Source of the DNA: Bacteroidales bacterium
GTDB lineage: Bacteria > Bacteroidota > Bacteroidia > Bacteroidales > FEN-979
Direction: 5' to 3'
DNA: 40,669 nucleotides
Assembly (NCBI GenBank): GCA_030681475.1
Contig: JAUXWT010000063.1
Location: 1 to 40,669, forward strand
The translations under genes were made by a program, and so were the position numbers. This document shows, in pieces, positions 869-37,932 of this stretch (the stretch's first letter is position 1; each line of letters opens with the position of its first letter). The notes under the pieces are model-generated. The model made no database searches, had not been told where the DNA came from, and worked only from the letters and a program-made list of their open reading frames with translations.

Positions 869-936
869 ATGTGTGAATCATGCAAATCTTAACCTGAATT
901 ATATAACAGATCTCCGGGCTGTGAAATCTATCTTTG
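869..936 (+). promoter_or_regulatory. Stress-box promoter module, copy 1
   Basis: ATGTGTGAAT begins at 869, ATGCAA fills the first half-site, ATATAAC the second half-site 21 bp on, and the -7 box TATCTTTG occupies 929-936. The predicted start of transcription is about 943, leaving a leader of about 40 bases before the gene at 983. It heads the long operon that contains the first AraC regulator and the hybrid kinase. Confidence 0.8.
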
Positions 937-982
937 TTATTAAATAACAACCATTTAAACAATTAACCAAATCTAATAAGTC

Positions 983-1138
983 ATGGGAAGTTTACTTTAC
1001 ATCATCGCGGTCATCCTGGTCATCGGTTGGGCAATCGGATTTTTTGCTTACAGCGCCGGTGGCATCATTCATATACTGCTGATAATTGCAATTATTGCGA
1101 TAATCTTTAGAGTTATTCAGGGAAGAAAGGTCCTGTAA
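983..1138 (+). CDS. DUF5670 / lmo0937-family small membrane protein
   Basis: A 51-residue hydrophobic peptide beginning MGSLLYIIAVILVIGWAIGF, with two membrane segments (about 4-22 and 28-44) and a short basic tail (IQGRKVL). The pattern matches the DUF5670 (lmo0937) family of about 50-residue proteins, which are often induced by envelope or general stress. The molecular role is unknown. It lies about 46 bases downstream of the -7 box of promoter copy 1 and 5 bases upstream of the AI-2E gene, so it is the first gene of that operon. A diverged relative lies at 11084. Confidence 0.75.
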   Translation: MGSLLYIIAVILVIGWAIGFFAYSAGGIIHILLIIAIIAIIFRVIQGRKVL

Positions 1139-1143
1139 ATACA

Positions 1144-2253
1144 GTGACAGATACCAAACTACAATTACCATTTTATGCCAGGGTAACAATTTTTCTGGTC
1201 GGCTCATTTGTCCTGGTGGCGATGTTATTCATTGCCCGTGGTATTATTCTTCCTATCGTTTTCGCAATCATTATCGCAACCCTGCTCCAACCTGTCGTTG
1301 ATTTTTTTGTACGGAGAAGAATCAACAGGCTGGTAGCCATCTCAATTACTTTAACGCTGGCCTTTTTAGTCATTGCTTTATTGGGCGCACTGTTATTTTC
1401 GCAGGTAAGGCGGTTTAGCGAAACATGGCCGATACTCATGGATAAATTCACCCTGATGGTCAACCAAGCCACCCTCTGGGTATCAGAGTATTTCGATATA
1501 AAGCCACGAAACATCCACAACTGGATCATAAAAACCAAAGGTGAGCTTATCAATACCAGCGGCGCTTCAATCGGGCAAACTCTGGTCACCCTTGGCAACG
1601 GGGTAATGGTCTTGGTTTTAGTACCGGTGTACACCTTTATGATATTGTACTACCGGCCCATTTTACTTGATTTTATTCGCAGGCTTTTTTCCGAAAGCCA
1701 TCAAAGTAAGGTGAGTGAAATTATTATCCAGATCAAAACGGTCATTCAACGCTACCTGGTTGGACTTGTCATCGAGGTAGTTATTGTCGCGGTATTAAAT
1801 GCCGCTGCGCTGCTGGCGCTTGGCATTCAATATGCGATCCTCCTGGGTATCATTGGGGGCGTGCTTAATATGATCCCTTACATCGGCGGTATCGTGGCCG
1901 TGGCATTGCCCATGATGGTCGCAATCGCCACCAAATCAACAGCATGGTACGCATTGTATGTTCTGGTAGCCTATTATTTCATTCAATTGATCGACAACAA
2001 CTATATTGTTCCCAAAATAGTTGCCTCAAAAGTAAAGATCAATGCCCTGTTCTCCATCATCGCGGTAATAGCCGGGAATGCATTATGGGGCATACCGGGC
2101 ATGTTTCTTTCCATACCACTCCTGGCCATTGTAAAACTAATTTTCGACCACATTGAATCCTTAAAACCATGGGGGTTTTTATTTGGCGACACCATGCCGC
2201 CAATATTGAAAATCGCACCAATTTTAGAAAAAATTATTAAAAAAACAAAATGA
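1144..2253 (+). CDS. AI-2E family transporter (permease)
   Basis: A 369-residue integral membrane protein of the AI-2E (YdiK/PerM/TqsA) family. An N-terminal pair of helices (about 12-60) is followed by a soluble stretch (about 85-145) and a C-terminal cluster of helices with glycine-rich turns such as LGIIGGVLNMIPYIGGIVA, which is the family hallmark. Length is normal. Members export small solutes or exchange Na/H; the substrate here cannot be told. The start is a GTG at 1144, which fits the tight spacing to the previous stop at 1138. Its stop overlaps the start of the GH130 gene by four bases, implying one mRNA. Confidence 0.85.
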   Translation: MTDTKLQLPFYARVTIFLVGSFVLVAMLFIARGIILPIVFAIIIATLLQPVVDFFVRRRINRLVAISITLTLAFLVIALLGALLFSQVRRFSETWPILMDKFTLMVNQATLWVSEYFDIKPRNIHNWIIKTKGELINTSGASIGQTLVTLGNGVMVLVLVPVYTFMILYYRPILLDFIRRLFSESHQSKVSEIIIQIKTVIQRYLVGLVIEVVIVAVLNAAALLALGIQYAILLGIIGGVLNMIPYIGGIVAVALPMMVAIATKSTAWYALYVLVAYYFIQLIDNNYIVPKIVASKVKINALFSIIAVIAGNALWGIPGMFLSIPLLAIVKLIFDHIESLKPWGFLFGDTMPPILKIAPILEKIIKKTK

Positions 2254-3296
2254 TAGCAGTTACAAAAACGGGAATTTTATTAACTCCCCGGGTCCTGGAT
2301 TTCGAACGCGAAGGAGTACTTAATCCTGCCATAATGCGCGAAGGCGACAGCGTTCATATTTATTACCGGGCTGTGAGGAAGGGAAATTTCTCGACCATTG
2401 GTTATTGCAGGCTGGATGGTCCGCTTACGGTAGCCGAGCGATGGGACAAGCCTTTCATGGTACCGGAGTTCGAATATGAATCACAGGGTGTTGAAGATGC
2501 ACGGATCGTAAAGATAGAAGATTTGTATTATCTGACCTATACAGGGTACGATGGCACAAATGCACGCGGAGCATTAGCCACTTCAAAGGATTTAATGCAT
2601 TTTAAAAAGCATGGGATCATCGTTCCTCCCATTACCTATGCAGAATTTGTGGACTTGGCTGAATCATCCGGGAAAGTGAATGAAAATTACTATCGCAATC
2701 ATAAATTCTATTACCAGAATGCAGATCCTGATAAAAAAATTATGTTGTGGGATAAAAATGTCATGTTCTTTCCACGGAAGATCAGAGATAAATTAGTGTT
2801 TCTTCACCGTATCAGGCCTGGCATTCAAATTGTTTTTGTAAATAGCCTGAAGGAAATCACCAGGGAATTTTGGGACAATTACTTTCTCAACATGGAGAAA
2901 AATATCATTATGGATCCTGTTTTTCCGCATGAGTCAAATTATATTGGCGGCGGTTGTCCCCCGATCGAAACAGAACACGGTTGGTTGCTCATTTATCATG
3001 GCGTGCAGGAAACCAAAAAAGGACGTGTGTATTCTGCCTGCGCCGCCTTGCTCGATTTAAATGATCCTGCATTAGAGATCGCACGGTTGCCCTATGCGTT
3101 GTTCTCGCCTGAATATGAGTGGGAACTGACAGGCGAAGTCAATAACGTATGTTTCCCGACAGGAACCGCATTGTTTGGAGATACGCTGTTTATCTATTAT
3201 GGGGCTGCCGACAGCCTCATCGCCTGTGCTTCGGTGAAATTAACGGAGTTGCTGGCAGAATTGTTGACTTATACTAAGAAAAATGATAAAAAATAA
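2250..3296 (+). CDS. GH130 family beta-mannoside phosphorylase/mannosidase-like protein
   Basis: A 348-residue protein of glycoside hydrolase family 130 (five-bladed propeller). Seen: IYYRAVRKG (37-45), GVEDAR (80-85) with the expected catalytic Asp83, LTYTGYDG, GGCPPIE followed by WLLIYHGV, and a late FPTGTALFGDTLFIYYGAAD. Family members phosphorolyse or hydrolyse beta-mannosides, usually beta-1,4 or beta-1,2 linkages, in the cytoplasm. No signal peptide is seen. It overlaps the permease gene upstream and the glycosyltransferase gene downstream by 14 bases. Such pairing of GH130 with a GT4 enzyme suggests making and recycling of a mannose-containing oligosaccharide; the exact sugar is inference. 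Confidence 0.85.
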   Translation: MIAVTKTGILLTPRVLDFEREGVLNPAIMREGDSVHIYYRAVRKGNFSTIGYCRLDGPLTVAERWDKPFMVPEFEYESQGVEDARIVKIEDLYYLTYTGYDGTNARGALATSKDLMHFKKHGIIVPPITYAEFVDLAESSGKVNENYYRNHKFYYQNADPDKKIMLWDKNVMFFPRKIRDKLVFLHRIRPGIQIVFVNSLKEITREFWDNYFLNMEKNIIMDPVFPHESNYIGGGCPPIETEHGWLLIYHGVQETKKGRVYSACAALLDLNDPALEIARLPYALFSPEYEWELTGEVNNVCFPTGTALFGDTLFIYYGAADSLIACASVKLTELLAELLTYTKKNDKK

Positions 3297-5610
3297 TGTT
3301 TCCGGTAAACCGGCCGAAGTCTTGTTTATTACTTCATATCCTCCAAGGGAATGCGGTATTGCAACCTATTCCCAGGATTTGATCACCGCGATAAATAATA
3401 AATTCAGCAATTCATTTTCCATTCAGGTTTGCGCCCTGGAATCAAATGGTACTACATTTCCTTATCCGGGCGAAGTAAAATATAAACTAAAGACTTCATT
3501 GGCAAGGGACTATGAAATATTGGCCACCAGCATCAACAAAGACGATGACATTGAAATCGTTCTGATCCAGCATGAGTTCGGCTTCTTTCATAATCAGGAA
3601 CTTGCATTCCTGAAATTTTTATATTCACTTTCAAAGCCGGTGGCCATTGTTTTTCACACGGTACTGCCTCATCCCGATGAACACTTAAAGTCCAAAATAC
3701 AGATTATTGAGGCAATTTGCGAATCAGTCATTGTAATGACCCGGAACTCAGCCGAGATTTTAAAGAATGATTACGGTCTGTCGTGTCAAAAAATATCCGT
3801 GATCGCACATGGTACCCACCTGGTTCCCCATTTAAGTGCAACGTTGTTAAAAACCAAATATGGCCTTAAAAACCGGAAAGTCCTCACAACTTTTGGCCTC
3901 CTTAGTTCGGGAAAGAGCATTGAAACCACATTGAATGCGTTGCCGGCCATAATCAAGACCAACCCTGACGTTGTATTTCTGGCCATTGGTAAAACCCATC
4001 CCGAGGTGGTGAAATCAGACGGCGAAAAATACAGAGAAATGCTCATTGAGAAGGTGAAACAGTATGCACTGGAAGAGCATGTGATATTTATCAACAACTA
4101 TCTGTCATTACCGGATCTGCTTGAATATTTGCAGTTGACGGATATATACCTGTTTACTGCCAGCGATCCGAACCAGGCTGTGAGCGGTACATTTGTCTAT
4201 GCCATGAGCTGCGCCTGTCCCATCATTTCCACCCCTATTCCACACGCTAAAGAATTATTGACTGAAGATACCGGAATTATTTTTGATTTTCGGAATTCAC
4301 AGCAACTGGCCGATGGAGTCATCAGGCTACTCAATGATAAACCATTGCGGCAGAATCTCAGCTCAAATACCCTGGAAAAAATTGTTTCCTCGGCCTGGGA
4401 AAATTCTGCCGTGGCACATGCCATGGTATTCAAAAAAATTGCCGGCGATAAAATCACCCTAAAATATGATCTCCCGGCAATCAACCTGGACCACATGAAA
4501 CATATGACAACCGGTGCCGGTATCATTCAGTTTTCAAAGATCAATCAACCGGACATAAGGTCCGGTTATACCCTGGATGATAATGCCCGGGCCCTGGTCA
4601 CCTCATGCATGTATTTTAAAATGACCGGTGATACAACATGTATCAGTGAAATAGAGAAATATTTCCGTTTCATTAAATACTGTATGCAGCCTGAAGGCCA
4701 CTTTTTAAATTATGTCGATAAGGAAAACAACTTTACTTCCCAAAACGAGACCACCAACCTGGATGATGCCAATGGAAGGGCGGTTTGGGCATTGGGATAC
4801 TTGATATCAATGAAGAGTATGTTGCCATTGGAAATCATTTCAGAGGCAGAAGTACTCATCGGGAAATCCCTGCTACGGATCGGAACTGTGCATTCCACAC
4901 GTGCCATGGCATTCGCGATAAAAGGATTGTACTACTATCAAAGCGCAATAAAGTCTCCTGAAAATCTTGTACTTATAAGAACATTCGCTGATCGCCTGGT
5001 TCAGATGTACAGGCATGAATCGGGCGAAGGCTGGAATTGGTTCGAAGGATACCTTACCTATGCCAACAGCATATTGCCCGAGAGCATGTTATATGCCTGG
5101 TTGCTGACCAGGGAACTAATTTATAAAGACATTGCCATTGCCTCTTTGGCCTTTTTGTTATCGCAAATTTTTAATGAAAACGGGATCGAAGTAATCTCCA
5201 ATAAAAACTGGCTTCAAAAGGGACAGGTAGCAGGTCGTTTTGGAGAACAACCCATTGATGTGGCATATACCATCATGACATTAAGTAAATTTTATGCTGT
5301 CCTGTTGAACGAAAATTACCGCTTGAAAATGGAAATTGCATTCAACTGGTTTCTTGGGAAAAACCGTCTGCATCAAATCATTTACAATCCATGCACCGGC
5401 GGATGTTACGACGGGCTCGAGGAGACACATGTAAACCTCAACCAGGGAGCAGAGTCAACGTTAAGTTACCTGATGGCAAGATTAACCCTGGAGAAGTACC
5501 ATCGGTCAGAAAATCCGGTCATGGGTCATTCGCGACATCATTTCAGGGTGCATACGAAAGAACGGCAATTTATCTATTCATCAAATATTAAAAAACAACC
5601 GGCTGTTTGA
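3283..5610 (+). CDS. GT4-type glycosyltransferase fused to a C-terminal alpha-toroid-like domain
   Basis: A 775-residue two-part protein. Residues about 10-390 look like a GT-B glycosyltransferase of family 4: an N-terminal YPPRECGIATYSQDL motif, HEFGFF, and the donor-binding region ASDPNQAVSGTFVYAMSCA followed by PIIST. Residues about 400-750 are a helical domain with LDDNARAL, a long run of paired helices, WNWFEGYLTYANSILPESM and AEST, resembling the (alpha/alpha)6 folds of glycan-acting enzymes. Such fusions next to GH130 are recurrent. The likely role is building a mannose- or glucose-containing glycan under stress; the product is unknown. Its stop overlaps the AraC gene start (TTGA). Confidence 0.8.
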   Translation: MIKNNVSGKPAEVLFITSYPPRECGIATYSQDLITAINNKFSNSFSIQVCALESNGTTFPYPGEVKYKLKTSLARDYEILATSINKDDDIEIVLIQHEFGFFHNQELAFLKFLYSLSKPVAIVFHTVLPHPDEHLKSKIQIIEAICESVIVMTRNSAEILKNDYGLSCQKISVIAHGTHLVPHLSATLLKTKYGLKNRKVLTTFGLLSSGKSIETTLNALPAIIKTNPDVVFLAIGKTHPEVVKSDGEKYREMLIEKVKQYALEEHVIFINNYLSLPDLLEYLQLTDIYLFTASDPNQAVSGTFVYAMSCACPIISTPIPHAKELLTEDTGIIFDFRNSQQLADGVIRLLNDKPLRQNLSSNTLEKIVSSAWENSAVAHAMVFKKIAGDKITLKYDLPAINLDHMKHMTTGAGIIQFSKINQPDIRSGYTLDDNARALVTSCMYFKMTGDTTCISEIEKYFRFIKYCMQPEGHFLNYVDKENNFTSQNETTNLDDANGRAVWALGYLISMKSMLPLEIISEAEVLIGKSLLRIGTVHSTRAMAFAIKGLYYYQSAIKSPENLVLIRTFADRLVQMYRHESGEGWNWFEGYLTYANSILPESMLYAWLLTRELIYKDIAIASLAFLLSQIFNENGIEVISNKNWLQKGQVAGRFGEQPIDVAYTIMTLSKFYAVLLNENYRLKMEIAFNWFLGKNRLHQIIYNPCTGGCYDGLEETHVNLNQGAESTLSYLMARLTLEKYHRSENPVMGHSRHHFRVHTKERQFIYSSNIKKQPAV

Positions 5611-6167
5611 AAATTTTTATCAAATACATGGTAAGCGCACGTTGCAAAGCAGAGGTAAAGGCAGCATTGAAGGAACTTGGCCTGCATTACATTGTTGTTG
5701 ACCTGGGTGAGGTTGAAATCATGGAAACTTTATCTCAGGAGCAACGGGATCGGCTGAAGATGGCCCTGCATACTTCCGGCCTCGAATTAATGGATGACAA
5801 ACGGGCTGTTTTGATTGAAAAAATAAAGAATGCCATCATTGAAATGGTTCATTATTCAGAAGAAATGATCAAGGTCAACTTCTCTGATTATTTAAGTGAA
5901 AAATTAAATCACGATTATACATACCTGTCCAACCTGTTTTCAGAAGTGCAGGGAACCACCATCGAACATTTCATGATCGCTCATAAAGTTGAACGGATCA
6001 AAGAACTGATCATTTATGATGAATTAAACATTTCGCAAATTGCCTGGAAATTGAATTACAGCAGTGTAGCGCATTTGTCGAATCAATTTAAAAAGGCCAC
6101 CGGATTGGCCCCTTCGAAATTCAGGCAATTGAAGGAAAAAAGGCGTCAACCGATCGAAGAAATATGA
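5607..6167 (+). CDS. AraC-family transcriptional regulator, copy 1 (candidate activator of the module)
   Basis: A 186-residue protein with an N-terminal helical/mixed region (1-95) and a C-terminal AraC/XylS DNA-binding domain (about 95-175). The second helix-turn-helix contains ELNISQIAWKLNYSSVAHLS followed by QFKKATGLAPSKFR, the AraC signature. There is no cupin sensor domain, so the signal probably arrives through a partner. The start is a TTG overlapping the previous stop. It is chosen because the paralogue at 33846 has exactly the same length from an ATG at the aligned position; ATG at 5628 is the alternative. Being inside the operon driven by promoter copy 1, it may activate itself. The hybrid kinase follows 34 bases downstream. 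Confidence 0.9.
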   Translation: MKIFIKYMVSARCKAEVKAALKELGLHYIVVDLGEVEIMETLSQEQRDRLKMALHTSGLELMDDKRAVLIEKIKNAIIEMVHYSEEMIKVNFSDYLSEKLNHDYTYLSNLFSEVQGTTIEHFMIAHKVERIKELIIYDELNISQIAWKLNYSSVAHLSNQFKKATGLAPSKFRQLKEKRRQPIEEI

Positions 6168-6201: not shown

Positions 6202-8481
6202 ATGGCCAGAATAATAGCACCGGATGAATTGATCTCAGCCCGCAAAGAAGCTGCCTTTCAGATGAAAGAGAACAGGAGACTCGAAAAAGAATTGTTCCAG
6301 GCCCATAAAGAACTTGCCTTTCAGAAGAAGGAGAAAGGTAAACGGGCTGATGAATTGGGTATTGCCAATATTGAACTTGCCTTTCAGAAGAAGGAGAAAG
6401 GTAAAAGGGCTGCTGAATTGGGTATTGCCAATATTGAACTTGCTTTCCAGGATATCGAGAAAGGGAAACGGGCTGCCGAATTAATCATTGCCAACTATGC
6501 CCGCAGCCTGATAGAAGCCAGCCTTGACCCGTTGGTAACCATCAATACGGAAGGCAAGATCACCGATATGAATGAAGCATCGGAAACCATTACCGGATTG
6601 ACACGGCAGGAACTCACTGGTACTGACTTCTTCGATTATTTTACGGAACAGCAGCTTGCCCGGGAAGTTTACCAGGAAGTGTTTGCAAAAGGATCGGTTG
6701 CCGACTCGCCGCTGACGCTTCGCCACAAGGGTGGCAAACTTACCGATGTGTTGTTCAATGGCTCTGTGTATAAGGATGACCTGGGGCAGGTATTGGGCGT
6801 AGTGATCGTTGCCCGGGATGTTACAGCTCAAAAGCGGATTGAAACGGAATTGAAAGAGGCCACCATACTTGCCAAACTGGCAACCGGCATTGCTGAAGAG
6901 GCACAGATTAAAGCTGAAGATTCCGCACGAATAGCAGTGAACGCAGTGAAAGCAAAACAGCAGTTTTTATCAAACATGAGCCACGAAATCCGCACCCCGA
7001 TGAATGCAATTATCGGGTTTACAAAAGTGCTAATGAAGACAGATATGTCATCGAGGCAAAGAGAATATCTTACCGCCATAAAATTGAGCGGTGATGCTTT
7101 GATCGTGCTCATTAACGACATACTTGACCTTGCCAAGGTGGATGCCGGCAAAATGATATTCGAGCAAACCCCTTTTAAAATGGCACAATCAATTTCTGCC
7201 ATGCTTCATTTGTTTGCGACTAAAATCCAGGAAAAGAATTTAGCGCTGGTTAAAGACTATGACAAAAGAATCCCTGAGGTGCTGGTTGGGGACCCGGTGC
7301 GTTTGCACCAGGTCATATTAAACCTGGTAAGCAATGCGGTCAAATTTACGACAAAAGGAAAAATTACGGTAAGAGTCCGTTTACTATCTGAAGATGAGGA
7401 AAAAGTCTCCATTGAATTTGCCGTATCGGATACCGGCATCGGGATACCGGAAAATAAAATAGAAAAGATATTTGAAAATTTCCAGCAGGCCACCAGCGGA
7501 ACTTCAAGGCTGTACGGGGGAACGGGCTTAGGGCTTTCCATCGTTAAACAACTGATTGAACCACAAGGCGGCACCATACATGTATTGAGTAAAGTTGACG
7601 AGGGATCTACTTTCAGTTTTATTTTGAGTTTTCTGAAAACGAATGTGGTAGTTGAATCAGACGAAGACCCGAAAATAGTGGCGCTGGATACGGAAATTAA
7701 AAACATCAAGATACTGGTTGTCGAAGACATTCCACTCAATCAATTGCTCATGAAAACACTCCTTGATGATTTCGGATTTGAGCGGGATATTGCTTCAAAC
7801 GGGAAAATAGCCATTGAATTTCTGCAGAACAAATCTTATGATATTATTCTGATGGACTTGCAAATGCCAGAAATGAACGGGTTTGAAGCGACTGATTACA
7901 TACGCAACACGATGAACTCCAAAATCCCGATCATCGCATTAACTGCTGACGTTACCACAGTCGATCTGGCAAAATGCAGAGCTGTGGGTATGAACGACTA
8001 TCTTGCAAAACCGGTTGACGAAAGATTATTGTTCAGTAAAATAGTCGGCCTGGTTAAAAAGCCGACACGTTCAAAATACAATGAACAGGATGGGAATGCG
8101 GACAACGGAGGAAAAAAGTCAAAATGCACTGACCTTGATTATCTGATGCAGCGTACAAAATCCAATCCGGCGCTGATGATGGAAATGATCTCACTTTACC
8201 TCGAACAAACACCGCCTTTGATCAGTACCATGAAACGGAGTTTTCACGATAAGGATTGGAATTCACTACACTCGGCAGTACATAAAATGATTCCGTCATT
8301 TTCAATCATGGGTATAAGCCCGGATTTTGAAAACATGGCAAAAAAAATTCAGGAATACGCTGTCTCACAGCAACAAACAGTTGGAATACAAAACCTGGTA
8401 TTGCAGATTGAAAATGTTTGTACCCAGGCATGCATGGAATTAGAGGCAGAGTTTGCCAAAATAAAAAGCGCCAACAAATGA
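6202..8481 (+). CDS. Hybrid sensor histidine kinase (coiled coil-PAS-HisKA-HATPase-REC-HPt)
   Basis: A 759-residue cytoplasmic kinase with no membrane segment. Order: a charged coiled coil with three 21-residue repeats (about 37-99), a PAS domain (about 100-215), HisKA with phosphoacceptor His261 in SHEIRTPMNAIIGF, HATPase with NLVSNAVKF, DTGIGIP and GGTGLGLSI, a receiver with Asp552 in LMDLQMPEMNGFEA and Lys603, and an HPt domain with His694 in SAVHKMIPSFSIMG. All phosphotransfer residues are present, so a full phosphorelay is possible. Its stop overlaps the start of a single-domain response regulator (ATGA). The signal is unknown. Position beside the AraC gene suggests it feeds the same stress response. 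Confidence 0.92.
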   Translation: MARIIAPDELISARKEAAFQMKENRRLEKELFQAHKELAFQKKEKGKRADELGIANIELAFQKKEKGKRAAELGIANIELAFQDIEKGKRAAELIIANYARSLIEASLDPLVTINTEGKITDMNEASETITGLTRQELTGTDFFDYFTEQQLAREVYQEVFAKGSVADSPLTLRHKGGKLTDVLFNGSVYKDDLGQVLGVVIVARDVTAQKRIETELKEATILAKLATGIAEEAQIKAEDSARIAVNAVKAKQQFLSNMSHEIRTPMNAIIGFTKVLMKTDMSSRQREYLTAIKLSGDALIVLINDILDLAKVDAGKMIFEQTPFKMAQSISAMLHLFATKIQEKNLALVKDYDKRIPEVLVGDPVRLHQVILNLVSNAVKFTTKGKITVRVRLLSEDEEKVSIEFAVSDTGIGIPENKIEKIFENFQQATSGTSRLYGGTGLGLSIVKQLIEPQGGTIHVLSKVDEGSTFSFILSFLKTNVVVESDEDPKIVALDTEIKNIKILVVEDIPLNQLLMKTLLDDFGFERDIASNGKIAIEFLQNKSYDIILMDLQMPEMNGFEATDYIRNTMNSKIPIIALTADVTTVDLAKCRAVGMNDYLAKPVDERLLFSKIVGLVKKPTRSKYNEQDGNADNGGKKSKCTDLDYLMQRTKSNPALMMEMISLYLEQTPPLISTMKRSFHDKDWNSLHSAVHKMIPSFSIMGISPDFENMAKKIQEYAVSQQQTVGIQNLVLQIENVCTQACMELEAEFAKIKSANK
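6310..6498 (+). repeat. Three tandem 63-bp repeats inside the kinase gene
   Basis: Copies start at 6310, 6373 and 6436, each beginning GAACTTGCCTTTCAG or a near match. The first two are almost identical in DNA; the third has diverged. They encode 21-residue coiled-coil units of the form ELAFQKKEKGKRA plus ELGIANI. Being in frame and a multiple of three, they can expand or shrink without breaking the gene and would change the length of the coiled coil ahead of the PAS domain. Confidence 0.9.
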
Positions 8482-8912
8482 AAAATAACAATAAAATAAA
8501 ACTGTTCATGGTCGATGATGATGCATTATTTTTAAAATCAATGGAAATTGAATTTCTCCTGCATGCAGATTTTGCGATTGAGACCTATGCGACAGGTGAA
8601 CTTTGCATGGCCAGTCTGTCGCACAGCCCGGATGTGATCATCCTGGATTATCGTTTGGACAGCATTGAAAAAGATGCGATGAACGGCATTGATACACTGG
8701 ATAAAATTAAAGCCTACAATCCTGATATTCCTGTTGTAATGTTATCTGCACAGGATAACATAGATGTTGCCATTAACTGCATGCATCACAGGGCATTTGA
8801 TTATGTCGTGAAAAGCGAAACCGCCTTCATCCGTTTGAAAAAGATCATCACGACCATTTTCCGCTACAAAAAAATGGAGAAGGAATTGAATTGGTATATG
8901 GAGAGGATGTAA
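8478..8912 (+). CDS. Single-domain response regulator
   Basis: A 144-residue receiver domain. KIKLFMVDDDALFL gives the acidic pocket, Asp57 in IILDYRLDS is the phosphorylation site, and Lys112 lies in DYVVKSE. There is no output domain, so it likely shuttles phosphate or binds a target protein. The ATG at 8478 is preferred to an upstream in-frame ATG at 8418 because the latter adds 20 residues overlapping the kinase and not found in receivers. The start overlaps the kinase stop by four bases. It is the last gene of the operon and ends 13 bases from the convergent outer-membrane gene. Confidence 0.9.
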   Translation: MKNNNKIKLFMVDDDALFLKSMEIEFLLHADFAIETYATGELCMASLSHSPDVIILDYRLDSIEKDAMNGIDTLDKIKAYNPDIPVVMLSAQDNIDVAINCMHHRAFDYVVKSETAFIRLKKIITTIFRYKKMEKELNWYMERM

Positions 8913-11381: not shown

Positions 11382-11449
11382 ATGTGTGAATGATGTAACA
11401 TAATTTCAGAAATATGTAACGTTGTTGGCTTTAACTAAACTTAATTTTG
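11382..11449 (+). promoter_or_regulatory. Stress-box promoter module, copy 2
   Basis: ATGTGTGAATGATGTAAC begins at 11382, TATGTAAC completes the second half-site, and the -7 box TAATTTTG lies at 11442-11449. It points into a strip of damaged genes (11470-12371), so it may be an intact promoter whose target has decayed. Confidence 0.8.
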
Positions 11450-12417: not shown

Positions 12418-12485
12418 ATGTGTGAATGATGTAACTCTTTTAAAGAATTATATAACGCGTTCTCCCGTTTTTTTAAAGACTTTTG
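12418..12485 (+). promoter_or_regulatory. Stress-box promoter module, copy 3
   Basis: ATGTGTGAATGATGTAAC starts at 12418, ATATAAC forms the second half-site and GACTTTTG the -7 box (12478-12485). The predicted transcript start is near 12492. This rules out the long in-frame extension of the OmpA gene to 12422 and supports the ATG at 12515. Confidence 0.85.
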
Positions 12486-14236: not shown

Positions 14237-14995
14237 ATGAAAAGAATAGAAAATAAAGTTGTTATTGTCACAGGTGGGGCACTGGGTATCGGTCGTGAAA
14301 CGTGCCTTTTGTTAGCAAAAGAAGGTGCGAAAGTCGCCGTAACTGATGTTCTGGACAAGGAAGGCCGGGAATTAGTTGAAGAAATTACACAATCAGGTGG
14401 AGTAGCCAAATTCTGGCATCTCGATGTAGCAAACGAAAAAGAAGTTGAAAATGTCTATGCCGAAGTAGTCAAAAAATTTGGGAAACTTCACGCAACCGTA
14501 AATAATGCAGGAATTGCAGGCGCTGACAAGCCAACTCATGAATTAACTGAAACAGAATGGGATGCTGTTATGAATGTGAACGTAAAAGGAGTCTTCTTCT
14601 GTACCAAACATGCAATTCCTCACATGCAAAAATCAGGCAGCGGAAGCATCATAAACCTCTCATCAATTTATGGGTTAGTCGGAGCAGGAGATATACCACC
14701 TTATCATGCTTCAAAAGGAGCCGTCAGATTAATGTCTAAAAATGATGCATTGATCTATGCCAAAGATAATATAAGAGTGAACTCTGTTCATCCGGGCTTT
14801 ATCTGGACACCCCTGGTTGAAGAATTAGGTAAAAAAGATCCGGGATTCAGAAAGCATCTTGATAGTCTGCATCCGTTAGGACATGTCGGCGAATCACTGG
14901 ATATTGCTTATGGAATACTTTATCTTGTATCTGACGAATCAAAATTTGTTACAGGAAGTGAATTAGTTATTGATGGCGGTTATACCTGTAAATAA
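14237..14995 (+). CDS. SDR-family NAD(P)-dependent oxidoreductase
   Basis: A 252-residue classical short-chain dehydrogenase. The cofactor motif TGGALGIG is at 12-19, NNAG at about 89-92, the catalytic Ser in NLSSIYGL, and Tyr156/Lys160 in YHASK. An Asp after the second strand (VTDVLD) favours NAD over NADP. The substrate cannot be told; relatives are often called glucose or cyclopentanol dehydrogenases. It is the first gene of an operon (14237-20177) with PPK2, a membrane protein, a baeRF3-like protein and a Ca-type ATPase. That operon has no copy of the stress-box promoter. Confidence 0.9.
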
Positions 14996-15017
14996 TGAGT
15001 CTGTTCAGACCAATCGG

Positions 15018-15886
15018 ATGAAAATGAAAATCGATTTAAAGGATTTCCGGGTCCGGCCCGGAGAAAAGGTCAGTCTCAAAGAGTGGCCAACAACCATAAA
15101 ACCTTTTTACAATTCGAAAAAAAAGTATAAAAAACATTTGGAAGAACACGTCGAGGAATTGAGCTCATTACAACGCCTTCACTATGCTTCCAGCCGCTAT
15201 GCGTTGCTCCTGATTTTTCAGGGTATGGATGCGGCAGGCAAAGATGGCACTGTCCGGCACGTAATGTCCGGAGTCAATCCGCAAGGGTGTGAGGTTTTCA
15301 GTTTTAAGGAGCCAAGTGCAGAAGAATTGGAACACGATTTTCTCTGGCGAACGACTCGCCGACTTCCTGAACGCGGGCGGATCGGCATCTTCAATCGTTC
15401 CTACTATGAGGAGGTCCTCGTCGTTCACGTACATCCGAAGATTCTTCGCGGCCAGGGACTTCCGAAAGAGCTGCTCGATAAGAAGACCATTTGGGAGGAT
15501 CGGTATCGTTCCATTATTGACCTGGAGGAACATCTCCACCGCAATGCACCCGGATCATGAAGATTTTTCTTAACCTGTCGAAAAAGGAACAGCGGAAACG
15601 ATTTCTTGAACGTATCGATGACCCGGAAAAGAACTGGAAATTCGGGTCCTCAGATATTCACGAAAGAAAATACTGGAAACATTATATGAAAGCATATGAG
15701 GATTGCCTGAGTGCGACAAGCACCCGTCATGCGCACTGGTACGTCGTTCCTGCCGACGACAAAGAGAACGCCAGGTTGATTGTCTCCCAAATTGTGCTGG
15801 ATGCACTTAATGATCTCAAGATGAAATACCCTGAAACTACCGCGAAACGCCGGAAGGAATTGAATGCTATCCGCAAACAGCTATGA
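15018..15886 (+). pseudogene. ppk2: Polyphosphate kinase 2 family protein, split by a one-base deletion
   Basis: The first frame (15018-15560) carries the PPK2 core: [19 protein letters not shown] (Walker A), FSFKEPS, HDFLWR and [19 protein letters not shown]. It ends with HLHRNAPGS and a stop. The second frame (15557-15886) continues exactly where PPK2 should: [28 protein letters not shown], and a normal C-terminus. Restoring one G near 15543 (aat-ggc-acc) joins them into about 289 residues, the normal length. PPK2 phosphorylates nucleotides from polyphosphate or the reverse. Both halves are well conserved, so the break is recent or a sequencing error. The start is set at 15018, just after the SDR stop. 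Confidence 0.85.
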
Positions 15887-23826: not shown

Positions 23827-23894
23827 ATGTGTGAATTTTGCAAATTTTTTCAAAAAAGATGTAATACTTTTTTGGTTGCAAGCGCTTATTTTTA
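23827..23894 (+). promoter_or_regulatory. Stress-box promoter module, copy 4
   Basis: ATGTGTGAAT at 23827 is followed by TTTGCAA, ATGTAAT as the second half-site 21 bp on, and TATTTTTA (23887-23894) as a -7 box with one departure from consensus. Transcription should begin near 23901, 18 bases before the ATG at 23919. It controls the small protein, CbpA and CbpM. Confidence 0.75.
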
Positions 23895-25477: not shown

Positions 25478-25545
25478 ATGTGTGAATGATGTAAATCTTT
25501 CCGGAAATTGTGTAATGCTTTCCGGAACTGTTAGCCCCACCTTTG
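25478..25545 (+). promoter_or_regulatory. Stress-box promoter module, copy 5
   Basis: ATGTGTGAATGATGTAAA at 25478, TGTGTAAT at the second half-site and CACCTTTG as the -7 box (25538-25545). The word CTTTCCGGAA occurs twice inside the module 21 bp apart, so here the repeat extends beyond the TGTAA cores. The transcript would start near 25552, directly at the edge of a gene that has lost its beginning. Confidence 0.85.
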
Positions 25546-30070: not shown

Positions 30071-30256
30071 TTAGACGGTGATACTCGTCAGATAAGCAAA
30101 GATACCAAATACCTTGAGAAGCCAGACGATAACAACAAGTACAACCACAATATTGAAGATGTTTTTAATTTTCCCATCCATGGGGATGATAGAGTTGACA
30201 AGCCATAAAAGGACACCTGCAACAATCAATACGATTAAGATAGTGAATAGTGGCAT
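30071..30256 (-). CDS. Thivi_2564-like small membrane protein
   Basis: A 61-residue protein MPLFTILIVLIVAGVLLWLV, then NSIIPMDGKIKNIFNIVVVL and a second helix. The pattern of two helices with a short IPMD-KIK turn matches the Thivi_2564 family of small proteins. An in-frame ATG at 30295 would overlap the -7 box of promoter copy 6 and precede the expected transcript start, so the ATG at 30256 is chosen. It is the first gene of a minus-strand unit that continues to the PAP2 gene at 27607. Confidence 0.75.
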   Translation of the reverse strand: MPLFTILIVLIVAGVLLWLVNSIIPMDGKIKNIFNIVVVLVVIVWLLKVFGIFAYLTSITV

Positions 30257-30292: not shown

Positions 30293-30360
30293 CAAAGGTA
30301 ATCCCTGACATTCCTCTTTTTATTACATAACTTTTGAAAAAAGTTATATCATTCACACAT
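30293..30360 (-). promoter_or_regulatory. Stress-box promoter module, copy 6
   Basis: On the minus strand ATGTGTGAATGATATAAC starts at 30360, TATGTAAT forms the second half-site and TACCTTTG (30300-30293) is a perfect TAnnTTTG. It directs the unit 30256-27607. It lies 35 bases from the 3' end of the DUF748 gene, read in the same direction. Confidence 0.85.
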
Positions 30361-32852: not shown

Positions 32853-33755
32853 TTACTTATTCACAGCAGAAAGCCTTTTAGCGTCCATTTTCCAACAGAC
32901 ACTCAGTCCCACTTCTTCGGAAGATGTTGACATGCTGAGGGAAAGATGTTTGGTGCATGGCGACTTATGCAAGGCAGGGACAACAATGCCAATGAGAGCG
33001 CCAAGCCCGAAACCGACGGCAACATCCGAAGGGAAATGATCCAATGATCTGATACGCGCATATGCGATCGTCAGGGGAGGAACTGCTGCGGCTAAATAAA
33101 GCAGGTATTTTAGCCCGCCAAGGTTGGGATGATAATCACTATATACCTTGGCCATAAAAAAAGTACTGTAAGCGCAGGAACCCACATGTCCGCTGAAAAA
33201 TGCATTGCGGGTGTTGTTGTTGTTCATGCGGAATTCAGGTGTAAGTTCATCAGTATTATAGTAAGCGAATGGCCGGTAACGGTTCACAAAAGTAGGTCCG
33301 AGAGGACTGTAGTTATAAAAGCTGAAAGTTATGGTGTGCCCCTCGACATACATTAACAGCAGGTCAAGCCAGTCTTTGCGCATATCCTTGTCAATGATAA
33401 GCAGGCTGGGCAATAAAAAGATGCCAATCTCACCATAATCTGATATTTTTTTGAACAGGTCCCGGTCAGCGGGATTTTGTTTCAATGCCCATCTGTCAAT
33501 CGTGTTGATCAGGTTTTTCTGCTGATCCGTATTGATAAACTCCAGTTCATCACTGGTAAGCTTTGGCTTGCTCTTCAAACGGCTGATGGCAAAATAATCT
33601 CCGATCATGCCGACACCGATGATACTGCCCGTAACATAATAGTTGACGTGATATCGTTTTACATGCGTCTTTGCTTTTACGGTAGAATCGGATGACTGAC
33701 AAAAACCTGTGAACGAAAATACCAAGGCAATTGCCATGCAGAAAATGTTTCTCAT
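32853..33755 (-). CDS. PAP2-family phosphatase-like protein, exported
   Basis: A 300-residue protein with a signal peptide (MRNIFCMAIALVFSFTGFCQ), a helix-rich middle and the PAP2 core. RYRPFAYYN stands for motif 1, NAFFSGHVGSCAYSTFF for motif 2 (SGH kept, Pro replaced by Phe-Ser) and RIRSLDHFPSDVAVG for motif 3. All catalytic Arg and His residues are present. It differs from the PAP2 gene at 27607, so the two are not recent duplicates. It is the first gene under promoter copy 7; its ATG lies about 30 bases past the -7 box. Confidence 0.85.
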   Translation of the reverse strand: MRNIFCMAIALVFSFTGFCQSSDSTVKAKTHVKRYHVNYYVTGSIIGVGMIGDYFAISRLKSKPKLTSDELEFINTDQQKNLINTIDRWALKQNPADRDLFKKISDYGEIGIFLLPSLLIIDKDMRKDWLDLLLMYVEGHTITFSFYNYSPLGPTFVNRYRPFAYYNTDELTPEFRMNNNNTRNAFFSGHVGSCAYSTFFMAKVYSDYHPNLGGLKYLLYLAAAVPPLTIAYARIRSLDHFPSDVAVGFGLGALIGIVVPALHKSPCTKHLSLSMSTSSEEVGLSVCWKMDAKRLSAVNK

Positions 33756-33785: not shown

Positions 33786-33853
33786 TAAAAGTGTGAACTT
33801 TACATCTGAAAAGTGTTACACAACTTTGGTATAAAGTTGCATCATTCACACAT
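33786..33853 (-). promoter_or_regulatory. Stress-box promoter module, copy 7
   Basis: On the minus strand ATGTGTGAATGATGCAAC starts at 33853, TGTGTAAC forms the second half-site and CACTTTTA (33793-33786) sits at the -7 position, the poorest -7 match. The first eight bases overlap the last codons of the second AraC gene. It drives the PAP2 and DUF748 genes. Confidence 0.75.
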
Positions 33854-34406
33854 TTTCAAGCGTACTGCGTTTTTTGGATTTGAGGGATTTAAAGAATGAG
33901 GGAGTCAGCCCGGTCACCTTTTTAAATTGATGGGAAAGATGGGCTACACTGCTGTAATGCAGTTTCCAGGCAATCTCGGAAAGGTTGAGTTCATCATAGA
34001 TAATAAGCTCTTTCACCCGTTCTATTTTATGCAGGATAATAAAATGCTCAATCGTGATCCCTTTGGTTTCTGAAAAGATATTGGCCAGGTAAGTATAATC
34101 GTAATCCAGTTTTTCTGAGAGGTAATCTGAAAAGTTTGTCTTAGGTACCTCATCCATATAATGAACCATCTCAATAATAACATTCTGTATCTTTTCAATC
34201 AGGATGGCTTTCTTGTCCTCCATCAGTTCAAGTCCTGATCGGTGCAGAGCCATTTTGAGCTGATCCCGCACCTCCTGGTTAATGGTTTCCATAATCTCGA
34301 CTGTTCCCAGGTCAACATTGACAAAATGGAGTCCAAGCTTCTTTAACTCTTCCCTGACCAGCATTTTACAGCGGTTACTTACCATGTATTTAATATAGAG
34401 CGTCAT
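33846..34406 (-). CDS. AraC-family transcriptional regulator, copy 2
   Basis: A 186-residue paralogue of the regulator at 5607, the same length and alike along the whole chain, for example GLELMEDKKAILIEKIQN, NFSDYLSEKLDYDYTYL and ELNLSEIAWKLHYSSVAHLS in the recognition region, then QFKKVTGLTPSFFK. The DNA-binding helices of the two proteins are nearly the same, so they may read the same site. The start is ATG 34406, aligned with copy 1, rather than an upstream in-frame ATG at 34457. It has no stress box of its own but lies between copies 7 and 8. Upstream, TTGACA and TATAAT sit 16 bp apart. Confidence 0.9.
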   Translation of the reverse strand: MTLYIKYMVSNRCKMLVREELKKLGLHFVNVDLGTVEIMETINQEVRDQLKMALHRSGLELMEDKKAILIEKIQNVIIEMVHYMDEVPKTNFSDYLSEKLDYDYTYLANIFSETKGITIEHFIILHKIERVKELIIYDELNLSEIAWKLHYSSVAHLSHQFKKVTGLTPSFFKSLKSKKRSTLENV

Positions 34407-34474: not shown

Positions 34475-34575
34475 AACTTTACTTATGCTGTTTGGTTGTC
34501 GTAAAATTAGTCCAAATTTTCATCCTTATGAATAATTGCATTTAAACAAAAATCATCCCACTCAATATTCATTGA

Positions 34576-34643
34576 ATGTGTGAATTATATAAAATATTTC
34601 AGGAATTGTATAACACGATTCTTAGAAGAATGCTGAATTTTTG
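34576..34643 (+). promoter_or_regulatory. Stress-box promoter module, copy 8
   Basis: ATGTGTGAAT at 34576, TATATAA in the first half-site, TGTATAAC in the second, and AATTTTTG as the -7 box (34636-34643). The first gene begins 67 bases later at 34711. It faces away from the second AraC gene, 170 bases from that gene's start. Confidence 0.8.
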
Positions 34644-34710
34644 TCAAACTTTAATCATAAGATTTCATTAACCCTGGCGATACAAATAAACTAATCCAAA
34701 GAAATAATAT

Positions 34711-35046: not shown

Positions 35047-35091
35047 CAATGCTTATGAAGTATGGTTCAAGGAATTTTAATGCTATAGCGC

Positions 35092-35271
35092 ATGGTTCTC
35101 AAGTCAAAGCTTTCATCAGGTTCAGTGGCAGACAAATACCCGGTGACTTTTGATGATGGTAAAACGATAATTTTTATTTCAGATAAAAGTAAAGAGCCCG
35201 AAACAAGGCAATGGTATGAACAACGGGTAGCCAACAGGTTTAAGAAGTATGTTAAAAAGCCTAAAAAATAA
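35092..35271 (+). CDS. Small basic protein of unknown function
   Basis: A 59-residue reading frame from ATG 35092 to TAA 35269-35271: MVLKSKLSSGSVADKYPVTF, then DDGKTIIFISDKSKEPETRQ and a strongly basic end (RFKKYVKKPKK). It has no recognised family. It is retained because it fits between the 34711 gene and the hydrolase, in their direction, with an amino-acid make-up typical of real proteins. A longer ancestral gene reduced to this end is possible. The 160 bases that follow (35272-35430) hold no convincing gene. Confidence 0.45.
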   Translation: MVLKSKLSSGSVADKYPVTFDDGKTIIFISDKSKEPETRQWYEQRVANRFKKYVKKPKK

Positions 35272-35430
35272 ATGTATTAACAGCTTACTTTAATTCAGTA
35301 CGCATATCCAATGAGTTCCAACCGGTTCGAATATTGAAGGACTACTATTGGTCACAGGAAGATTATCGTATCCACCTTATTATATAATTGAAGCAAAGAA
35401 AAAGCACCAAACAGTTAACAGAAATTCAAA

Positions 35431-36291
35431 TTGAAAATAATGAAGAAATTACAGGATAAAAAGAAAAAAGGAATGACCCGGGAAGAATATATTAAAGTTG
35501 AATCCAATGTGTACCTGCATGTTACAGATGCAGGTATGGGGAGGCCGGTTGTCCTTATCCACGGCTGGCCCCTGAGTGATGAAATGTATGAATACCAGTA
35601 CAACGATCTGATAAACAATGATTTTCGGGTAATTGGCATAACATTACGGGGCTTTGGGAAATCGAGTAAACCATATGGACTTTATAATTATAATGTACAT
35701 GCAAGGGATATCAAAAAAATCCTTGACCACCTGGATATAAAAAAAGCTGTTTTAGGCGGCTTTTCCATGGGCGGCTCCGTTGTAATCCGGTATGTCTCGT
35801 TATATAAGAGTGCCCATGTCTCAAAGCTGGCCTTATTCAGTGCTGCAGCACCGATCTGGACACAACGCAAGGATTTTCCATACAATTTGCAAAAAAGTGC
35901 GGTGGATGCCCTGGTTGAACTGAACTACAGGGACAGGCCGAAACTTCTGTCCGATTTTGCAAAAATATTCTCTGCCACGGAAACCTCGTTAAATGAAGGG
36001 ATAGGCAATTGGCTGAATGGGATTTGCCTAAGTGCGTCTTCTTATGCAACGGCAAAATGTTTAATTGCTTTACGGGATACTGACCTTAGAAAGGATTTAA
36101 CGAAAATTAAAATCCCGACACTCATTATGCATGGCAAACAGGATAAAATCTGTTCTTTTGATCTGGCTGAACAGATGAAAGCCGGAATCTCCGATTCGCA
36201 ACTCATTCCTTTTGAGAATAGCGGCCACAGCTTGTTTCTGGAGGAAACTGAGAAGTTTAATACAGCGCTTATCAAATTTGCAGGTAAGTGA
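35431..36291 (+). CDS. Alpha/beta hydrolase (non-haem chloroperoxidase-like)
   Basis: A 286-residue alpha/beta hydrolase. HGWPLSDEMY carries the oxyanion-hole region, Ser112 in GGFSMGGSVVIRY is the nucleophile, Asp238 in MHGKQDKI the acid and His266 in NSGHSLFLEE the base. FRVIGITLRGFGKSSKPYG is typical of esterase/non-haem haloperoxidase relatives. No signal peptide. The natural substrate is unknown. The first 14 residues are basic and may be untranslated; ATG 35440 or 35473 are alternatives. It probably belongs to the unit under promoter copy 8. Confidence 0.85.
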   Translation: MKIMKKLQDKKKKGMTREEYIKVESNVYLHVTDAGMGRPVVLIHGWPLSDEMYEYQYNDLINNDFRVIGITLRGFGKSSKPYGLYNYNVHARDIKKILDHLDIKKAVLGGFSMGGSVVIRYVSLYKSAHVSKLALFSAAAPIWTQRKDFPYNLQKSAVDALVELNYRDRPKLLSDFAKIFSATETSLNEGIGNWLNGICLSASSYATAKCLIALRDTDLRKDLTKIKIPTLIMHGKQDKICSFDLAEQMKAGISDSQLIPFENSGHSLFLEETEKFNTALIKFAGK

Positions 36292-36311
36292 GTCAGGATA
36301 AAGAAACTTCC

Positions 36312-36944
36312 TTATGAATGATCCACTCCATCCGTTTGTGTAAATCGTAAAATTTTCCGGGCTATATCCTCTGGTGAAAGAATAAAATCTATACAACCGG
36401 TTGCTATTGCGCTCTCCGGCATATCCGGCTGGATAGCTGTATCGGGCTTCTGCGCTATGGTAATACCGCCCACTTCTTTTATACCGCAAAGTGCTTCCGC
36501 ACCATCCCCGTCATATCCTGAGACAATGACAGCGATAAGTTTGCCATCCCAGTGTTTTGTCAAAGAACGAAGGAAAACAGTAATAACATCAGGCCAACCC
36601 CGTGGCTTTGATATTGGTTTTAGTCGAAATTCCTCATCCAGAACATGCAAGTCGCATTTTTCTGGTATGATATATACATGGTTGGGCCGGATGTCTAGTT
36701 TCTCGGTTATAAGTGTAACTGGCATCTCCGTATAGCGCGGAAGAATCTCATGAAGTTGGGTGGCTACCGTTCTCAAGTGATTTACGATGACGATAGCAAC
36801 ACCCATATCTGCCGGAAGATTTCGCAGTAACCGGATATAGGAGTCGAGTCCTCCGGCAGAACCGCCAACACAAATAACAGGAAAGTCTTTTGCAGCATTC
36901 TTATTCTTCAGTGGTTTCATAACGCTCAAGGAAATGTATGCCAT
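36312..36944 (-). CDS. Stand-alone CheB methylesterase domain protein
   Basis: A 210-residue protein that is only the CheB catalytic domain: Ser29 in VGGSAGGLDSY, His56 in VIVNHLRTVATQL and Asp147 in SGYDGDGAEAL. The receiver domain of chemotaxis CheB is absent, so it is not controlled by direct phosphorylation. It resembles the CheB part of the fusion at 20320, and catalytic positions fall at the same residue numbers. It starts 47 bases after the HPF-like gene in the unit under promoter copy 9. ATG at residue 9 is an alternative start. Confidence 0.88.
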   Translation of the reverse strand: MAYISLSVMKPLKNKNAAKDFPVICVGGSAGGLDSYIRLLRNLPADMGVAIVIVNHLRTVATQLHEILPRYTEMPVTLITEKLDIRPNHVYIIPEKCDLHVLDEEFRLKPISKPRGWPDVITVFLRSLTKHWDGKLIAVIVSGYDGDGAEALCGIKEVGGITIAQKPDTAIQPDMPESAIATGCIDFILSPEDIARKILRFTQTDGVDHS

Positions 36945-36991
36945 TGTGGATGTCCCATAGTCATTTTTCGTTTTTTGACATAATCTTATTT

Positions 36992-37306
36992 TTAGTGATT
37001 TGAAGTGCGTTCAAGAATGGTTTCTAAAGCAGTTTGTAGTTTATCAATAGCACCTGATACAGCTAGTTCAACTGTATCATCCTGACATGAAACAGCAATT
37101 GGTTGCCTGCCTTCAAGTCTGGCTTCCAGCAAACATCGTATATCATTCATGCCTTCTTTTTTTCCATTTTCGTCTGATAGATGAACTTCTATTCTTGTAA
37201 TATGAGATTGGTATCTTTTTAGCTCTTCAGCAATTTGAGAAGTAAAAACAGTTTGATGCTTTTCATCTCCATTAATTGTTTTGTCGGTATTAAATTGAAT
37301 TTTCAT
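36992..37306 (-). CDS. HPF/RaiA-like ribosome-associated protein
   Basis: A 104-residue protein with the beta-alpha-beta-beta-beta-alpha order of ribosome hibernation factors: MKIQFNTDKTINGDE at the start, RIEVHLSDENGKKEG for the strand and turn, LLEARLEGRQPIAVSC and AIDKLQTALETILERTSNH for the last helix. Length suits short HPF-like proteins. Such proteins sit in the mRNA channel of idle ribosomes and stabilise them. Its neighbours are a very acidic protein (21 bases upstream) and a CheB domain protein. It is under promoter copy 9, in keeping with a stationary-phase role. Confidence 0.75.
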   Translation of the reverse strand: MKIQFNTDKTINGDEKHQTVFTSQIAEELKRYQSHITRIEVHLSDENGKKEGMNDIRCLLEARLEGRQPIAVSCQDDTVELAVSGAIDKLQTALETILERTSNH

Positions 37307-37327
37307 AGCTGTATTTTTGTTTAATTG

Positions 37328-37645
37328 TTATCCTTTATCCTCATCTAAATCATTATGATTATCCCCACCCAAACTATAATAATTGTTTTCTTCATCCTCA
37401 CTGCCAACTTTTTCTTGTTGATCATCTAATTCTGATCCTGGAACATCCAGGTCATCGCCAGACATATCATCCTCAAAATTCTTTTCGTTTAATGTCCCTT
37501 CCTCTTCGTTTGGTGCTTTTTTTTTAGAAATATCTTCTGGATTTAAATCCATTTCTTTTTCCGCCTGTTTGTATATGTCTTCTGAAGGCGGATAGAGCGG
37601 AATAATTTCTAGATCCGTTTTGCTTTTAATTTCTGTAGTTTTCAT
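37328..37645 (-). CDS. Very acidic, probably disordered protein
   Basis: A 105-residue protein rich in Asp, Glu, Asn and Lys without hydrophobic core: MKTTEIKSKTDLEIIPLYPP, then a middle of the type NEEEGTLNEKNFEDDMSGDD and a C-terminal DNHNDLDEDKG. No domain is recognised and it is probably unfolded. It is the first gene after promoter copy 9 (its ATG is 40 bases past the -7 box) and lies 21 bases from the HPF-like gene, so a partner role on ribosomes or as a water-binding stress protein is possible. Confidence 0.65.
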   Translation of the reverse strand: MKTTEIKSKTDLEIIPLYPPSEDIYKQAEKEMDLNPEDISKKKAPNEEEGTLNEKNFEDDMSGDDLDVPGSELDDQQEKVGSEDEENNYYSLGGDNHNDLDEDKG

Positions 37646-37685
37646 TTGGTATTTGTTTTATTGTAATGAATATTTCACTATGATA

Positions 37686-37753
37686 CAAAGGTGAGACTTA
37701 TTGCTATCAAATGTCTTACATAACTATCGAAAAGAGTTACATGATTCACACAT
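37686..37753 (-). promoter_or_regulatory. Stress-box promoter module, copy 9
   Basis: On the minus strand ATGTGTGAATCATGTAAC starts at 37753, TATGTAAG forms the second half-site and CACCTTTG (37693-37686) the -7 box. It stands back to back with copy 10, with 111 bases between their first boxes. Confidence 0.85.
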
Positions 37754-37864
37754 TACAAGCAATCAGAATATTTTACATAAAAAATCTGTCGCTTCTAAGA
37801 CACAACAGGTTACAACTAACTTAGAACAGTCAACCTGCAAGCCAAATTGTCCAGGTAATTGAGA

Positions 37865-37932
37865 ATCTGTGAATGATGTAAAATATTTCCAGAAATGTGT
37901 AACGGTTTCCGGAATGAATGGTTACACCTTTG
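37865..37932 (+). promoter_or_regulatory. Stress-box promoter module, copy 10
   Basis: ATCTGTGAATGATGTAAA at 37865 (one change in the first box), TGTGTAAC at the second half-site and CACCTTTG (37925-37932) as the -7 box. The CsbD gene begins 41 bases later. As in copy 5, a TTTCC-GGAA word follows each half-site. Confidence 0.85.

Follow-up and report, generated by a model that had tools for sequence, protein, structure and literature searches.

A candidate AraC-activated regulon of the Bacteroidota and its fixed-spacing promoter module

A contig of 40,669 nucleotides from a Bacteroidales bacterium of the FEN-979 lineage (GenBank assembly GCA_030681475.1, contig JAUXWT010000063.1; hereafter the window, meaning this whole stretch) contains ten copies of a 68-base promoter module. 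Sequence comparison makes it probable that these modules are the promoters of one regulon, found across the Bacteroidota and stress-like in content, activated by an AraC-family protein with kinship to copper-type regulators. Direct activation by this protein is the most likely mechanism. A small AraC-family protein (~186 amino acids), made up of an Atx1/HMA-like N-terminus and an AraC DNA-binding domain, would bind two direct repeats spaced by 21 bp, of which the proximal one would replace a weak -33 element, and would bring the usual sigma-A holoenzyme of the Bacteroidota to a -7 box of the form YACCTTTG. Its targets would include many of the araC genes themselves, resulting in positive feedback.

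Promoter modules in the window, the genome and the phylum

The ten modules had been proposed in a sequence-only reading of the window, and all lie at the positions given there. Their first ten bases, ATGTGTGAAT, are exact in nine sites and differ by one base in the tenth (37865+). A TGTAA-like block is present in all ten at positions 13-17 (TGTAA, TGCAA or TATAA) and again at 34-38 (TGTAA or TATAA). The -7 box at positions 61-68 had been described as close to TAnnTTTG; A at 62 and TTT at 65-67 are indeed found in all ten, but the full TAnnTTTG occurs in just three (869, 11382 and 30360), and two sites (23827 and 33853) end in A. Spacing was said not to vary by a single base, and it does not among the ten copies. 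The sites were also described as intergenic, each pointing to a gene or gene remnant. The latter is borne out, since 11382+, which faces a stretch without an evident intact gene, falls under the allowed remnants. The former holds for all except 33853-, whose first eight bases are the 3' end of the araC2 gene, with the stop codon TGA at positions 6-8. The ten sites are as follows.

Site 1: 869..936, + strand; upstream of the run DUF5670, AI-2E transporter, GH130, glycosyltransferase, araC1, hybrid kinase, response regulator
Site 2: 11382..11449, + strand; upstream of a stretch in which no intact gene is evident
Site 3: 12418..12485, + strand; upstream of an OmpA-family gene (start 12515)
Site 4: 23827..23894, + strand; upstream of a small open reading frame (ORF; 23919), then a DnaJ-domain protein (24187)
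Site 5: 25478..25545, + strand; upstream of a DUF3943 protein (25778)
Site 6: 30293..30360, - strand; upstream of a 61-amino-acid hydrophobic peptide (30071-30256), then DUF4421 and PAP2 genes
Site 7: 33786..33853, - strand; overlaps the araC2 stop codon, upstream of a PAP2-family gene (32853-33755)
Site 8: 34576..34643, + strand; upstream of a 111-amino-acid protein (34711), divergent from araC2
Site 9: 37686..37753, - strand; upstream of a small acidic protein (37328-37645), followed by S30AE-like and CheB-domain proteins
Site 10: 37865..37932, + strand; upstream of CsbD (37974), the sole CsbD match in the genome

A boxes-only matrix, built with the ten window sites among others, gave ten matches of at least 12 bits in the window against one (12.5 bits) in 200 order-1 Markov simulations. 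No Rfam family reached its gathering score within the window, which also holds no tRNA. Site 1 (window 606-936) and a site at about 1086-1415 of contig C54 (G000:C54) are alike beyond the boxes, as is an upstream antisense ORF, consistent with a duplicated stretch.

Scanning of the whole genome, as called for in the sequence-only reading, revealed a sharply bounded set of sites, far beyond chance. Pattern scanning of the 4.24-Mb genome with at most three mismatches found 18 sites and none with the reversed pattern, and a profile built from the ten window copies found 19 at E <= 1.4e-6, the next best match having E 0.68. These 19 fall on the window contig (ten), C54 (four), C109 (two), and C30, C74 and C7 (one each). 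The proposed regulon island is thus upheld, ten of the 19 sites sitting in a 40.7-kb contig. Five of the nine sites outside the window lie within ~5 kb of a contig end (three on C54, one each on C74 and C7), with the C30 site, at 5.1 kb, a sixth; the islands may therefore be chromosomal neighbors.

Ungapped scans at 12 bits or above covered six site-bearing stretches of this genome, 20 from relatives and 80 loci across the phylum, and yielded 19, 83 and 176 sites respectively (278 in total; 0, 0 and 0 in the reversed-sequence controls). The stretches of relatives (L192-L211) were picked for holding sites and were used for spacing and content, not for co-occurrence. A matrix of 277 sites (one was omitted as too close to the end of its stretch) has the consensus AATGTGTGAATKATGTAACTTWTTTCNAAARTTRTGTAACAC, followed by 19 low-information bases and YACCTTTG. 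Its core consists of two direct repeats, AATKATGTAAC and ARTTRTGTAAC, 21 bp apart, and no symmetry of the matrix is stronger than this direct repeat (10.7, against 6.8 for the next and 6.4 for the best palindrome). In a separate scan there were 278 matches to box 1. Box 2 fell below threshold in 61 of them and stood at exactly 21 bp in 215 of the other 217, so that the fixed spacing claimed for the window extends, very nearly, to the phylum. The -7 box stands at its exact place in 178 of these 217 two-box sites, one base closer in 16, and elsewhere or unrecognized in 23. Over the matrix A occurs at position 62 in 91% of sites, TTT at 65-67 in 86-99% and G at 68 in 73%. A median of 43 nt separates the -7 box from the start codon (269 sites with a downstream ORF called by a simple rule), and just four of the 277 sites lie inside an ORF of at least 200 amino acids.

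The accessible text of two Flavobacterium studies places the -7 box, TAnnTTTG, at -12 to -5 (PMC9723704, PMC6847099), and in that of the F. johnsoniae study many -7 boxes lie 4-5 nt ahead of the start site (PMC6847099). By this measure, transcription would begin ~5 bases past position 68 rather than the ~7 proposed previously. Setting the G of the -7 box at -5 would put the repeats at about -65 to -55 and -44 to -34 on the Flavobacterium scale as given in those texts, a placement that would suit an activator touching RNA polymerase at -35.

The candidate activator and its co-occurrence with the sites

Two genes of the window encode the candidate activator, one of them in a run with two signaling genes.

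araC1: 5607..6167, + strand; candidate activator with an HMA/Atx1-like N-terminal domain (MVSARC) and an AraC DNA-binding domain, in the run behind site 1
PAS hybrid histidine kinase: 6202..8481, + strand; in the same run as araC1, a possible signal input
Response regulator: 8481..8912, + strand; in the same run as araC1, matching a receiver domain only in Pfam
araC2: 33846..34406, - strand; second candidate activator (MVSNRC), 70% identical to araC1, its stop codon within site 7

Both proteins exceed the cut-off for the AraC domain PF12833 (E 3e-16 and 6e-14), and no NCBIfam model reaches its cut-off with either. Direct repeats spaced by 21 bp, about two helix turns, are a habit of the AraC family, and repeats of this spacing that end beside the -33 region of a sigma-A-like -7 box fit an activator of this kind. 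Control by one activator, as the sequence-only reading had suggested, is supported by the rigid repeats abutting this box, by the two AraC genes of the island and by the sites placed before araC elsewhere in the phylum. The latter were sought in 80 loci, the best 80 of at least 540, selected by the AraC protein alone and all with Bacteroidota titles except one (Ignavibacteria). A site is present in 73 of the 80 and points at araC within 600 bp in 61, and in 45 of these 61 the -7 box and the start of the AraC protein match are 18-32 bp apart. One such locus belongs to F. fluvii DSM 19978 (L178), which has a site in front of its araC. In this genome and its relatives, the site begins exactly 5 bases before the araC stop codon in 13 of 22 distinct araC genes. 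A third AraC of this family (G000:C40:76663-77217, L258) reads MVCSCC, and no P-ATPase-like ORF was seen in its stretch.

Sites and activator also occur together. Across 61 genomes, at least five sites were found in 19 of the 26 with a close AraC (E <= 1e-50) compared with one of the 35 without. Within the genus of the window (g1) the figures are 11 of 11 and none of eight, and the carrier genomes of this genus have 8 to 35 sites each. In a sample of 296 genomes of the phylum, AraC at E <= 1e-20 is present in 61 of 62 motif carriers against 142 of the 296 overall; as 16 candidates were scored per genome under strict filters, and the search recovers 16 of the 19 sites of the window genome, its counts are lower bounds. 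A distant AraC paralogue was considered as the regulator and rejected, being present in 18 of 19 g1 genomes regardless of the motif (P = 1; P = 0.06 over all 61 genomes). One genome, G003, retains three sites and has an araC copy with an internal deletion that removes most of the DNA-binding domain. Loci L213-L216 of G071 and G076 contain a family of variant sites (e.g., TGTGGGATAAATGTAAC) without a close AraC, and a different or diverged regulator may read them; the AraC near the G071 sites (L215, 298 amino acids) was inspected as a regulator and gave no clue.

The N-terminal domain and copper-type regulators

The predicted AraC model (mean predicted local distance difference test score 82.7) has a beta-alpha-beta-beta-alpha-beta N-terminus joined to an AraC DNA-binding domain. 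In Foldseek searches AraC-type domains top the list for the DNA-binding part (6swi, E 9e-4; 2k9s), and the N-terminus matches the Atx1-type copper chaperone 2xmv (target TM 0.68, Foldseek probability 1.0). The sequence MVSxRC stands where Atx1/HMA domains have MxCxxC, and neither window protein (MVSARC, MVSNRC) conforms to the metal motif. No copper-type P-ATPase is present among the ORFs at the window araC genes; the ATPase encoded at 17514 of the window carries cation-ATPase domains but lacks an HMA domain.

Eleven paralogue loci were fetched because the phylum search had given a weak site near an AraC. Five contain an AraC with MVCxRC, one (L250) has MVSxRC, and motif searching found no such N-terminus in the remaining five. 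At all five MVCxRC loci a P-ATPase gene with an HMA domain adjoins araC or lies one ORF off, and the three of these ATPases scanned with NCBIfam all score above the cut-off of TIGR01511 (copper-type). The same 21-bp core is found there (12-27 of a maximum 44.5 bits), with the same -7 offset and no TGTG extension, and the site lies at or ahead of the ATPase ORF start. More widely, a TIGR01511 match was found within 5 kb of a distant AraC, always on the same strand, in 27 of 40 genomes chosen from the 142 AraC carriers because their best AraC match lay at roughly 1e-50 to 1e-65.

A tree was built from 120 rows, limited to carriers of the MVS or MVC motif. A single branch (98/92) has all 105 MVS rows on one side of it; bootstrap values were still unsettled, and the long branches leave the deeper order unsure. 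A small MVCIRC clade adjoins the MVS side, and its four members that were read have an extended site at the stop codon. The sites assigned to the regulator have a TGTG extension in the distal repeat, and in most tree rows the first metal-binding cysteine is missing from the protein.

These sequence and fold comparisons make it most likely that the regulator is related to AraC proteins which act on copper-type ATPase genes by way of this same core, and it may descend from them. Most economically, a stress regulator would have arisen from a copper-type one and would have gained many promoters before the cysteine was lost. We give an even chance to the fuller account, in which a general-stress-type regulon of the Bacteroidota is run, in place of an alternative sigma factor, by an AraC protein derived from a copper sensor, its Atx1-like domain kept and one cysteine lost, and the site of the copper ATPase was extended by TGTG and spread to many promoters. 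The MVCxRC paralogues share the domain layout, the 21-bp core and the -7 offset with the regulator described here, but keep MxCxxC, and their five followed sites are without TGTG, each before one ATPase gene. CueR, CopY and CsoR control copA-type ATPases, as is supposed for the MVCxRC paralogues, but belong to protein families other than AraC. For Bizionia argentinensis, the accessible text of a copper study describes MerR- and CopY-family proteins without known copper sites, weighs ArsR- and CusR-type candidates and does not contain the term "AraC" (PMC11213822).

Regulon content and alternative explanations

Predicted first targets in this genome include OmpA, CsbD, two ice-binding genes (the only two present), an MlaE-type permease, DUF5670, DUF3943 and PAP2, together with small membrane and lipoprotein-like genes. 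Deeper in the target gene runs are DnaJ, S30AE-like, AI-2E transporter, GH130, glycosyltransferase, araC1, hybrid kinase and response regulator genes. Pfam was scanned for 114 first genes (19 from this genome and 95 from phylum loci, of 226 available; araC was omitted). By raw counts, unadjusted for background, the commonest families are ice-binding (16), response regulator (8), OmpA (8) and CsbD (7); those found three times include ferritin-like, DUF5670 and glycine zipper, and MlaE was found twice. At locus L028 (5067-12302) two similar gene units each encode a long ice-binding-like (PF11999) protein, and each lies behind a site of its own. Judged by these predicted families, the content suggests a general or envelope stress regulon.

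It is possible, if on balance unlikely, that AraC binds the sites but that the regulon is an envelope, adhesion or biofilm program, or answers a single signal such as cold or osmolarity. Ice-binding-like and OmpA proteins are among the commonest targets, and MlaE, PAP2, glycosyltransferase and secreted proteins also occur; however, the regulon includes CsbD, ferritin-like, DnaJ and S30AE-like proteins as well, which are typical of general stress regulons. It is improbable that another regulator, such as the hybrid kinase/response regulator pathway beside araC1, reads the motif and that araC is merely one of the targets. In favor of this, the araC genes are targets, response regulators account for eight of the 114 first genes, and some site-bearing genomes are without a close AraC. 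The response regulator at 8481, however, matches only the receiver domain in Pfam, and an identical repeat core is found alongside AraC paralogues of other clades whose target gene is different, linking this core to the AraC family as such.

A promoter of an alternative sigma factor, with box 2 and the -7 box as its two elements, is very improbable. The nearly fixed spacing and the loss of the first T of the -7 box are what such a promoter might show, but the box retains the A and TTTG of the sigma-A consensus, the two upstream boxes repeat each other at 21 bp, a feature for which a two-element sigma promoter has no need, and the same core stands at the paralogous AraC loci. Finally, a spreading repeat resembling a miniature inverted-repeat transposable element that happens to carry a promoter, as the many near-identical boxes close together and the resemblance of site 1 to a C54 site beyond the boxes might suggest, is most improbable, because over 277 sites there is little information in the flank and in the greater part of the spacer, and the sites moreover sit upstream of genes at the short distance from the start codon given above.

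Several observations do count against activation of one regulon by a copper-related AraC protein. T at position 61 occurs in just 22% of sites, whereas it is near-invariant in the -7 boxes of F. johnsoniae given in the accessible text of that study (PMC6847099). No site points at araC within 600 bp in 19 of the 80 AraC-selected loci, and araC2 of the window has none pointing at it. Sites were found without a close AraC in ten of 35 relatives, namely nine sites in G036 (85% complete), four in G020, three each in G003, G013, G040 and G049, and two each in G002, G032, G041 and G058. G252 has three sites and no AraC found even at 1e-5, and G071 and G076 have eight sites each, several of them variant, with distant AraC proteins only. 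Conversely, G043 has AraC at E 3e-57 with no site found, as have, in the 16-candidate search, four (G183, G203, G326 and G334) of 23 phylum genomes with AraC at E <= 1e-80. Target genes within the genus track AraC too (CsbD in 11 of 11 genomes with it and one of eight without; ice-binding in 10 of 11 and none of eight), a source of confounding; as the whole module travels together, the correlation reveals a unit and not binding by itself. As for the copper link, the Atx1 match is weak (E 0.06), only five of the 11 paralogue loci had MVCxRC and were followed, and L250 (G345) has an AraC reading MVSLRC whose nearest strong repeat core is without the TGTG extension, so that extension and cysteine loss are not always coupled.

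The window has several other features. A PPK2 gene (14970-15886) is split over two frames, 15006-15557 and 15557-15883, which match successive parts of PF03976, and is thus either a frameshifted gene or an assembly error. A DDE transposase (PF01609) at 39895-40521, close to the contig end, may explain the break in the assembly there. The island also encodes a CheB-CheR-PAS fusion (20320-23229) and a lone CheB methylesterase-domain protein (36312-36944), which may point to sensory use outside chemotaxis.

How does an AraC-activated regulon compare with known systems? AraC/XylS activators (PF12833) share the AraC-type DNA-binding domain, direct repeats adjoining the -35/-33 region and activation of their own gene, suggested here by the sites before araC; the present protein differs in its Atx1/HMA-like N-terminus, its size and a phylum-wide regulon of many operons. 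The stress responses of sigma-B, RpoS and EcfG overlap with the regulon in types of predicted target (CsbD, ferritin-like, OmpA, glycine zipper), but here the master regulator would be an AraC protein that activates through the housekeeping sigma factor and not an alternative sigma factor. The regulon had been proposed as undescribed, and none like it was found in the open-licence literature, judged mostly by titles and abstract openings; in the portion of its main text that was accessible, PMC9723704 mentions neither "AraC" nor "CsbD." As far as these searches show, AraC-type activation is known, and the role of the subfamily, the site, the phylum-wide regulon and the copper-type link are new in that literature.

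To our knowledge it is an open question how the Bacteroidota, a major phylum in soil, water and the gut, manage a general stress response in the absence of the classical sigma factors. A regulator, its exact predicted site, a list of targets and a possible origin are here proposed together, and can be tested in a cultured environmental Flavobacterium that carries the gene. The copper-type paralogues in turn offer a candidate regulator for the copA-type genes of Bacteroidota, a question left by the B. argentinensis study as far as its accessible text goes (PMC11213822).

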